A DNA stretch of 64,000 nucleotides from Candidatus Mcinerneyibacteriota bacterium (GTDB taxonomy: Bacteria; Macinerneyibacteriota; Macinerneyibacteria; Macinerneyibacteriales; DSCS01), in assembly GCA_016937175.1 (NCBI GenBank), contig JAFGWL010000001.1:1-64000 (forward strand), given 5' to 3'. The notes beneath the pieces were generated by a model. The model did not search any database. It was given only the letters and a program-made list of their open reading frames with translations, and was not told the origin of the DNA. Shown one piece after another: positions 28,064 through 48,413 of this stretch (its first letter is position 1; each line of letters begins with the position of its first letter). The position numbers and the translations under genes were made by a program.

Positions 28064-28717
28064 TTACTCCCGTAAAGATTCCGGCAGAAGGAGGTCATAA
28101 GCCTTGTAGTTTTTCCTTAAAAGATTGTGGCCCATTTTATAGATCCCATATGTGATAAACGGTGCCGCGTAGACATCGATGGCATAGTGGATCTTCATCA
28201 GGAGAACCCCTGAAGCTTCGACGAGGGTGGACATGAGAAAAAAGTAACGCAGATATTTAGTCTTGTCCCTTGTGATCAGATAACAGAGAAAAGGAAAGGC
28301 TGTGTGACCGGAGAAGAAAAGATCGTTATAGATGGGGTCCCACGTTTCATGGATGGCATTGGCCGGGTAAGTCAGAGACGTTGTGGGGAGGATGATGAAT
28401 TTGGAAAAATACATGAGCGTGAAGAGCTTGATATAAAACGGCATCCGCTGGGGTTCCCTGGCGAGGACCCAGGCAGTAAAGACTGCAAATAAAAGGTAGA
28501 TGTAGTTGGAGGCGATAAAATCAAGATTGACGGAAGGAAGAGCATTAAGCAGCTCATCGTTTACCGGGTTGTAGGGGAGTTGTGCCAGGTACCCGGCCAG
28601 AAGTACGTTAAAATAGTAGAGATAGAACCAGAGAAGGACTCCCAGAGAGAGGAGCAGGTCTCCGGCAAAACGGGGGTTACGCAGAAGGGAAAAGATCTTT
28701 TTTGTCCAGTATTTCAT
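28064..28717 (-). CDS. PAP2/sphingomyelin-synthase-like membrane phosphatase or phosphotransferase
   Basis: Multi-pass protein with FFSGHTAFPF and HYAIDVYAA motifs. Confidence 0.65.
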   Translation of the reverse strand: MKYWTKKIFSLLRNPRFAGDLLLSLGVLLWFYLYYFNVLLAGYLAQLPYNPVNDELLNALPSVNLDFIASNYIYLLFAVFTAWVLAREPQRMPFYIKLFTLMYFSKFIILPTTSLTYPANAIHETWDPIYNDLFFSGHTAFPFLCYLITRDKTKYLRYFFLMSTLVEASGVLLMKIHYAIDVYAAPFITYGIYKMGHNLLRKNYKAYDLLLPESLRE

Positions 28718-29586
28718 TCATTTACCTCGATATTGAGCAGGTCCAGGATGCGGGTCAGGTCTTCCTCGGAGTAATATTTGATAGAAAGGGAGCCTCCTGA
28801 GGGGGTATGGGTGATGGAGACCCGTGTTCCGAAATATTCCTGAAGACGGTGTTCCAGGAACTCGATTCCGGGATCCTTCTGGGCAGGGGAGGAAGACTTG
28901 GGGCGGCGGGAGACCTCTTTCTTGGAAGCGGCCATTTTTTCAAGCTCCCGGACACTGAGCCCCTCTTCGGTAACAGCCTTAAGAAGCTTAAGCCGGATGG
29001 AGGAATTTTCAAAAGAGAGGAGGGCCCGGCCGTGGCCGGCGGAGATCTTGTCGTCTTCAATGGCTTTGATGATCTCTGGCTCCAGCTTCAGCAAGCGTAG
29101 GGTGTTGGTGACATAAACCCTGCTCTTAGAGACTACACGGGCCACATCCTGCTGGGTCAATCCGTTTTCCTCTATGAGCCGCTGGTAACCCAGGGCTTCT
29201 TCGATGGGGTTAAGGTCTTCCCGCTGGAGATTTTCGATGAGAGCCATGACAAGCATCTGGCTTTCGTTTGTGATATCCCTGATGATGACGGGGATCTTTT
29301 TATAGCCCAGGCGGAGCATGGCCCGGAAACGTCTTTCTCCGGAAATGATCTCATAGGAGTCTTTCCCGGACCGGCGCACCGTCACAGGCTGGAGCAAGCC
29401 GTTTTCTTTAATGGAATCGGCCAGGGATTGGATCTCCTCCTCGTGGAAGAGGTTTCGGGGCTGGAACCGGTTGGGTTTGACAGCTTCAGCCGGAACTTCC
29501 ACGTAAAGGCTCTCCCCCCCCTCTGAAAAGGGCTCGGAATCGGGGATGAGAGCGCCGAGGCCCTTACCTAACGCTTTCTTTTTCAT
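28714..29586 (-). CDS. parB: Chromosome partitioning protein ParB
   Basis: KKKALGKGLGALIP, ISGERRFRAM, ENLQREDLNPIEEA, HTH LTQQDVARVVSKSRVYVTNTLRLL; start trimmed to 29586. Confidence 0.96.
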   Translation of the reverse strand: MKKKALGKGLGALIPDSEPFSEGGESLYVEVPAEAVKPNRFQPRNLFHEEEIQSLADSIKENGLLQPVTVRRSGKDSYEIISGERRFRAMLRLGYKKIPVIIRDITNESQMLVMALIENLQREDLNPIEEALGYQRLIEENGLTQQDVARVVSKSRVYVTNTLRLLKLEPEIIKAIEDDKISAGHGRALLSFENSSIRLKLLKAVTEEGLSVRELEKMAASKKEVSRRPKSSSPAQKDPGIEFLEHRLQEYFGTRVSITHTPSGGSLSIKYYSEEDLTRILDLLNIEVNE

Positions 29587-30340
29587 GATGGAGTACCTCC
29601 TCGACAAATTGCATATATGAAGTCGCGCCGGCTGATTTGATATCGTAGAAAATAATGGGAAGTCCGAACGAGGGTGCTTCACTGAGTTTTACGTTGCGGG
29701 GAATGACTGTATTGTAGACCTTCTCCTTGAAATAGGCCCGGATATCATCAACGACTTGCTGAGCCAGATTGATGCGTTTGTCGAACATGGTCAGGAGGAT
29801 CCCCTGGATGTAAAGTTGAGGGTTAAGGTTCTTTTTGATAAGGTTAAACGTATGGACGAGCTGTGCGACTCCTTCCAAAGCATAATATTCGCATTGAATG
29901 GGGATGATCAGTCCTTGAGAAGCCACCAAAGCGTTGATGGTCAGAAGACCCAGAGAGGGCGGAGAATCGATGATAATATAATCATAGTCTTCTTTCAGGG
30001 GCTCCAGGATATTTTTCAGCTGCATCTCACGGGCCATGACACCGACAAGCTCCACCTGAGCGCCGCTCAGATCAGCATGTGAAGGAAGCAGGTCCAAATT
30101 TTTGATCCCTGTCTTCATAATAACATTTTCTACCGCCTCATGCTTGATCAGGACATCGTAGATGGAGACGGCGATGCTCTCCTTGTTGATTCCGATACCG
30201 CTGACGGCATTGGCCTGTGGGTCAACATCGACCAGCAGGACGGATTTCCCGTATACGGCCAGACAGGCGGCCATATTCACCGCTGTGGTCGTTTTTCCCA
30301 CGCCGCCCTTTTGATTGACTATTGAAATGACACGTCCCAT
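29564..30340 (-). CDS. parA: Chromosome partitioning ATPase ParA/Soj
   Basis: NQKGGVGKTTTAVNMAACLA, LLVDVDPQANAVSG, YIIIDSPPSLGLLT. Confidence 0.97.
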   Translation of the reverse strand: MGRVISIVNQKGGVGKTTTAVNMAACLAVYGKSVLLVDVDPQANAVSGIGINKESIAVSIYDVLIKHEAVENVIMKTGIKNLDLLPSHADLSGAQVELVGVMAREMQLKNILEPLKEDYDYIIIDSPPSLGLLTINALVASQGLIIPIQCEYYALEGVAQLVHTFNLIKKNLNPQLYIQGILLTMFDKRINLAQQVVDDIRAYFKEKVYNTVIPRNVKLSEAPSFGLPIIFYDIKSAGATSYMQFVEEVLHHEKESVR

Positions 30341-30439: not shown

Positions 30440-30455
30440 TGTTTCACGTGAAACA
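30440..30455. promoter_or_regulatory. parS site 2
   Basis: Perfect TGTTTCACGTGAAACA. Confidence 0.96.
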
Positions 30456-47803: not shown

Positions 47804-47824
47804 GGGGGGAGGGATCCTCCCCCC
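47804..47824 (-). terminator. Intrinsic terminator of the arsR-glutaredoxin operon
   Basis: Minus-strand GGGGGGAGG-ATC-CCTCCCCCC stem-loop followed by TTTCTTTTTC. Confidence 0.65.
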
Positions 47825-47830
47825 GGGGGA

Positions 47831-48061
47831 TCAGAGGCCTAAGGCTTTGTCGATCTCAGGTTTGTTAAATCCGATGATGATCTTGCCGTTGATATCTACA
47901 ACGGGAACACCCATCTGGCCTGACTTACGCACCATCTCCTGGGCTTTAGCCTGGTCTCTGGAGACATCGAAATCGGTATAAGCGATCTTCTTCTGTTCCA
48001 GGTAGCTTTTCACCATTTTGCAATAGGTGCAGGTCGGAGTGGAATAGATTGTAATATTCAT
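47831..48061 (-). CDS. Glutaredoxin-like protein (YruB-type)
   Basis: ITIYSTPTCTYCKMVKSYL CxxC, MGVPVVDINGKIIIGF. Confidence 0.88.
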   Translation of the reverse strand: MNITIYSTPTCTYCKMVKSYLEQKKIAYTDFDVSRDQAKAQEMVRKSGQMGVPVVDINGKIIIGFNKPEIDKALGL

Positions 48062-48348
48062 TGAGAGACCTCCTTTGTTAAGAGAGAGATAAATTGTCTG
48101 ACATCATCATCCAGGATGGCATAACACATGGATACTCCTTCACGACTACAGCGGATCATCCCGAGCCGGCGCATGATGGAGAGATGTTGTGAAACCGCCG
48201 GCTGGCTCACACGATACTTTTCCATGATCCTTTTCAAGTCATAGGAGCCGTGATAGAGATCCAAAAGGATCTCAAGCCGGACAGGATGTCCCATGGCTTT
48301 CAGTTTTTCGGCCCACAAATGAAGTTTATCCATATTCTTTGCTTCCAT
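48058..48348 (-). CDS. ArsR-family winged-helix transcriptional regulator
   Basis: MGHPVRLEILLDLYHGSYDLKRIMEKYRVSQPAVSQHLSIMRRLGMIRCSREGVSMCYAI; 4-nt overlap with the glutaredoxin gene. Confidence 0.9.
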   Translation of the reverse strand: MEAKNMDKLHLWAEKLKAMGHPVRLEILLDLYHGSYDLKRIMEKYRVSQPAVSQHLSIMRRLGMIRCSREGVSMCYAILDDDVRQFISLLTKEVSQ

Positions 48349-48357
48349 GAGTTAAGT

Positions 48358-48377
48358 ATATAAGAATATTCTTATAT
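48358..48377. promoter_or_regulatory. Perfect 20-bp palindrome, candidate ArsR operator
   Basis: ATATAAGAATATTCTTATAT immediately upstream of the arsR-family start codon. Confidence 0.75.
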
Positions 48378-48413
48378 GTCAAGAGAAAAAATCCCTTTCC
48401 TTGCCCCTTTTTT

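Follow-up and report, generated by a model that had tools for sequence, protein, structure and literature searches.

A predicted self-regulated arsR-glutaredoxin operon with a candidate thiol-sensing wing cysteine in Candidatus Mcinerneyibacteriota

Introduction

The ArsR/SmtB family of regulators is dominated by metal sensors. Among the closest described systems is RexT, an ArsR-SmtB sensor of H2O2 from Nostoc that controls the thioredoxin gene trxA2 and senses through the vicinal α3 cysteines Cys40-Cys41 together with an Arg-Thr-Asn set; Cys41 is peroxidatic and conserved in all thioredoxin-linked homologues, and some homologues without Cys40 have a cysteine at the position of Thr68 in β1 (PMC8960804). 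SurR, the sulfur regulator of Thermococcales, operates by a CXXC thiol-disulfide switch whose reductant is a glutaredoxin-like protein disulfide oxidoreductase (PMC7278568). The literature that we searched on TsoR, on ArsR-OsmC-glutaredoxin units and on Mcinerneyibacteriota held nothing relevant, and no thiol-sensing ArsR was found there for uncultured bacteria.

We analyzed a 64-kb stretch of DNA from a Candidatus Mcinerneyibacteriota bacterium, hereafter the window, in which an arsR gene adjoins a glutaredoxin gene within one operon and may control it, as RexT does the thioredoxin-fold gene beside its own. The two systems share an ArsR-fold repressor coupled to a thiol reductase gene (a control that is predicted here), a sensing region (proposed in our case) where α3 meets the wing, and wing strands of equal length (66-71/74-79 in RexT, 65-70/73-78 in the window protein). 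They differ in that the window ArsR has no α3 cysteine, the conserved cysteine lying instead in a wing strand, and in that the partner is a YruB glutaredoxin rather than a thioredoxin. RexT membership was rejected, since residues 1-66 contain no cysteine and an equivalent of Cys41 is thus missing. SurR resembles the window system in pairing a regulator that carries a thiol-disulfide switch (a proposed one in our case) with a glutaredoxin-like reductant, but it is archaeal and has a bigger regulon, and membership was set aside for want of a CXXC in the window ArsR. The sensors of persulfide and redox state BigR, SqrR and HlyU count among the best structural matches and are also small cysteine-using ArsR proteins, yet their pair of cysteines in α2 and in α5 or the C-terminus is missing from the window ArsR, which was kept out of this group on that count and on its BigR model score (47.5 bits against a cut-off of 155). 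Assignment to the arsenic-sensing ArsR proteins failed on the lack of ELCVC-type α3 cysteines, the only cysteines being those at positions 67 and 75.

Results

The regulator (48058..48348, minus strand; 96 amino acid residues) scores 66.1 bits against NF033788 (cut-off 55) and 38.8 bits against PF01022 (cut-off 22). Its AlphaFold (AF2) model has a pLDDT of 91 and counts HlyU (4k2e, TM 0.88) and SqrR (6o8m, TM 0.86) among its best PDB structural matches; by curated score and winged-helix fold alike, the protein belongs to the ArsR/SmtB family, and its genome has no second ArsR match at E≤0.001. The second gene, grx (47831..48061, minus strand), codes for a 76-residue glutaredoxin with a CTYC active site, assigned to the YruB family by TIGR02196 (96.7 bits, cut-off 88.55) and matching PF00462 (70.4 bits, cut-off 22.9). 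As a YruB glutaredoxin the protein itself is unremarkable; it is the ArsR neighbour that sets its locus apart. The same genome also carries a gene for an ACR3 arsenite exporter (G000:C5:867-1859), though its single ArsR match at this threshold is the glutaredoxin-linked one.

Both genes are read from a predicted minus-strand promoter, TTGACA-16-TATACT, that matches 11 of the 12 bases of the sigma-70 consensus. The perfect −35 hexamer (48377..48382) is identical in loci L004/L033 and L005/L034, and the putative −10 hexamer lies at 48355..48360. The 16-nt spacer is filled by the palindrome ATATAAGAATATTCTTATAT (48358..48377), which touches both hexamers. A strong predicted intrinsic terminator, GGGGGGAGGATCCCTCCCCCC-TTTTTCTTTT (47804..47824, minus strand), follows a few nucleotides past the grx stop codon and closes a two-gene operon that spans 48382 to 47804 on the minus strand. 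The first-pass annotation had reported a perfect 20-bp palindrome upstream of arsR, an ATGA overlap between the arsR stop and the grx start, and a CTYC glutaredoxin; all of these are present as described, except that the palindrome ends 9 nt before the arsR ATG and not 10 nt. This ATG comes 6 nt after the −10 box (TATACT-TAACTC-ATG), and because it coincides with the expected transcription start the arsR message is probably leaderless. Initiation at an internal ATG (M6) preceded by GGAAG would be possible in the window; we preferred the leaderless ATG since the congener encodes valine (GTA) at the position of M6.

ATATAAGAATATTCTTATAT is the sole perfect palindrome of at least 20 bp in the window, and no second copy with up to 3 mismatches occurs within these 64 kb. 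A first-order Markov simulation predicts 0.1 such palindromes per 64 kb, so that, taken alone, its rarity is only mildly unusual; we accept it as real because of its placement and conservation. A shorter perfect palindrome of 16 bp, TGTTTCACGTGAAACA (30440-30455), corresponds to the canonical parS sequence. With the ParA-like (29564-30340) and ParB-like (28714-29682) genes, which follow about 100 nt downstream, it makes up a chromosomal parABS locus.

The arsR-grx pair occurs in all three Mcinerneyibacteriota genomes. In the congener, a run of 34 bases comprising the −35 hexamer, the operator and the −10 hexamer is identical while the upstream flank has diverged. Ca. Mcinerneyibacterium aminivorans, a member of the same order but of another family, shares the ATAAGAATATTCTTAT core and the promoter and keeps TTGACA, ATAAGAATATTCTTATAT and the gene pair; its SLBB neighbour lies on the opposite side and strand, and arsR-grx is still a unit. 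The 16-bp operator core has one full match in each of the three genomes, and no full-match copy of the operator was found elsewhere in the window's genome. At the OsmC loci that we read in the window's order, no match to the operator was detected within 4 mismatches. Judged from these sequence comparisons, arsR-grx is a real, conserved regulatory unit. The public MAG SpSt-1200, source of contig L033 (DSCS01000021.1), is labelled "Bacillota bacterium", a label that looks wrong given that this contig matches the genome placed in the window's genus, beside Ca. Mcinerneyibacterium.

We searched 386 genomes for YruB glutaredoxins and read the neighbours at the 30 best loci. ArsR neighbours among these 30 were confined to the window's order and one other phylum; outside these two phyla, none of the 24 other top-scoring loci read had an ArsR gene adjoining the glutaredoxin gene. 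In the second phylum, arsR is located directly upstream of the glutaredoxin gene in 26 of 32 loci read, often with an ATGA overlap and an apparent leaderless start. The promoters of most of its lineages carry palindromes of their own, such as TCAAGTATTTAAATACTTGA, TTCCAAGATTTTGGAA and TTCAACGACAGTTGAA. The last type (TTCAACNNNNGTTGAA) is present as a single copy per genome, always at arsR-grx, in 9 of the 11 genomes tested from one lineage. At the loci whose neighbours were read, a divergently oriented gene codes for OsmC, and some loci have a PDO-like gene downstream. The 26 second-phylum ArsR proteins form one clade, apart from the window's ArsR in the best tree. Constraining the glutaredoxin-linked ArsR proteins of both phyla to a single clade was not rejected by the AU test (p=0.255), a result compatible with a common origin of the pairs.

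The alignment of 29 glutaredoxin-linked ArsR proteins with 113 other ArsR proteins singles out position 75, in wing strand β2, which is a cysteine in 29/29 linked and 7/113 unlinked proteins, a contrast that is phylogenetically clustered since 26 of the linked proteins are the second-phylum clade. Position 38 is a cysteine in 26/29 linked proteins compared to 1/113 unlinked ones. All seven unlinked proteins with C75, read by eye, also have a cysteine at about 36-38. By contrast, within the linked set a cysteine at position 67 is restricted to the window and its congener; the residue is serine in Ca. Mcinerneyibacterium and arginine or lysine in the second phylum. Across the three genomes of the window's order the combinations are C35+C75, C35+C67+C75 (the congener) and C67+C75 (the window). 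The window ArsR lacks the 35-38 cysteine seen in its relatives and offers no evident disulfide partner for C75. The register of the wing hairpin, derived from the strand limits of the AlphaFold model (65-70 and 73-78), pairs residue 67 with 76 (C67-Y76) and 68 with 75 (S68-C75), which would place C67 and C75 on opposite faces of the wing. Together, these patterns make C75 the likely sensor cysteine. One of the seven unlinked C75 proteins, with cysteines C37 and C75, heads an operon with TrxA and TrxB (thioredoxin and thioredoxin reductase) in an unrelated genome (L007:1447-3016), possibly a sister redox switch.

A thioredoxin reductase search of the three Mcinerneyibacteriota genomes was carried out for an enzyme able to recharge the glutaredoxin. 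In every case the best match was a disulfide reductase of the AhpF type, devoid of the AhpF N-terminal domain; AhpF is its best-scoring model (381.6 bits, against 312 bits for TrxR), and the score falls below the full-length AhpF cut-off because this domain is missing. This enzyme probably recharges the glutaredoxin. The operator's half-site motif TATAAG-N6-CTTATA has exactly two sites per genome in both congeneric genomes, as opposed to 0 control matches: one at arsR-grx and one in the intergenic region 5′ of the reductase operon. In the window's genome this region is split over contigs C27 and C24, which we placed side by side on the gene order of the congener. On the reductase side, 14-15 nt separate the element from the −35 hexamer downstream of it in both congeneric genomes, placing the candidate site near −60, an unusual position for simple repression. 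Ca. Mcinerneyibacterium has an imperfect element (2 mismatches in 20) with a degenerate right half at the same place before the reductase gene, to which we give less weight since this AT-rich genome has many matches of that kind. The regulon that we predict is compact: it consists of the glutaredoxin and the reductase likely to serve it, under a defined operator of 20 bp. In both congeners, the reductase operon includes a small acidic upstream ORF, and a conserved gene set starting with MKRLL is divergent from this operon (L195:2671-2966 and L197:1-225).

Discussion

Self-regulation of arsR-grx, as the first-pass annotation proposed, is well supported, because a conserved operator lies within the promoter and the rest of the genome contains no full match to it. 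The unit is best read as being under thiol-redox control, and this reading is probable. It is supported by the glutaredoxin linkage in two phyla, the OsmC and PDO-like neighbours in the second phylum, the ArsR-TrxA-TrxB operon and the candidate second operator on the reductase side. The proposal of a thiol-redox switch is thus supported as to its redox role but not as to its two-cysteine wing mechanism: the regulator does have two wing cysteines and does lack ELCVC, but the variability of C67 within the order and the modelled register speak against the suggested disulfide. Nor do these data point to sulfide in particular, the other signal named in that annotation.

We consider it reasonably probable, on balance, that arsR-grx is a self-repressing thiol-stress operon in which reduced ArsR occupies its own promoter until C75 triggers its release. 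The reduced ArsR dimer would bind the palindrome and exclude RNA polymerase. Upon oxidation of the thiol pool by peroxide, disulfide stress or reactive sulfur, C75 in the wing would be modified, the wing would release the DNA and glutaredoxin would be made. The AhpF-type reductase would recharge the glutaredoxin with NAD(P)H, and the glutaredoxin would in turn reduce its clients, possibly including ArsR itself, thereby closing a feedback loop. In relatives, C75 would be resolved by the second cysteine near the start of α3 (35-38); the window ArsR, in which this partner is lost, may act as a one-cysteine switch.

The main rival to this redox reading is a metal or metalloid sensor, in which C75 and a cysteine at 35-38 (or C67) would form an α3-wing site for Cd, Zn, Cu or As, with the glutaredoxin and its reductase shielding thiols. 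Cysteines could equally serve as metal ligands, the habit of the family points the same way, and residues 35-38 overlap the α3 metal site of ArsR/CadC. We nevertheless regard metal sensing as unlikely, given that none of the loci read has an efflux pump or metal gene linked to arsR-grx, that the window ArsR has just two cysteines, on opposite wing faces and outside any ELCVC motif, and that the CmtR model scores 37.6 against a cut-off of 150. The presence of ACR3 in the window's genome could be held in favor of a metalloid signal, but the exporter gene sits on a different contig and is missing from the congener, which keeps both the operon and the operator; an arsenic role was rejected on these grounds.

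Still less credit is due to a ligand-free autorepressor resembling SdpR that would fix a low, constant level of glutaredoxin. The tight self-operator fits such an arrangement and the SdpR autorepressor model (NF033789) gives 45.5 bits, which is short of its cut-off of 100 bits and led us to reject SdpR membership; moreover, the invariant C75 and the recurring thiol-redox partners in two phyla suggest a cysteine signal. Least probable of all is a disulfide switch between C67 and C75 within the wing hairpin. The window protein and its counterpart in the congener do carry both cysteines in the wing, and RexT Thr68, which corresponds to residue 67 here by strand position, is replaced by cysteine in some homologues. 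This switch would nonetheless have to operate with thiols that face opposite ways in the modelled register, and with a residue 67 that is serine, arginine or lysine in the other linked proteins.

More tentatively, and with somewhat less confidence than for the operon itself, we suggest that these proteins represent an undescribed class of ArsR thiol switches that rely on a β2 wing cysteine and may control glutaredoxin, OsmC and disulfide-reductase units in at least two phyla, with a wandering partner cysteine (35, 36, 37 or 38) lost in the window lineage. ArsR proteins are usually classed as metal sensors, and this lineage suggests that a wing cysteine can provide a redox handle. A wing cysteine at position 75 would offer a testable rule for recognising thiol-sensing ArsR proteins in uncultured bacteria.
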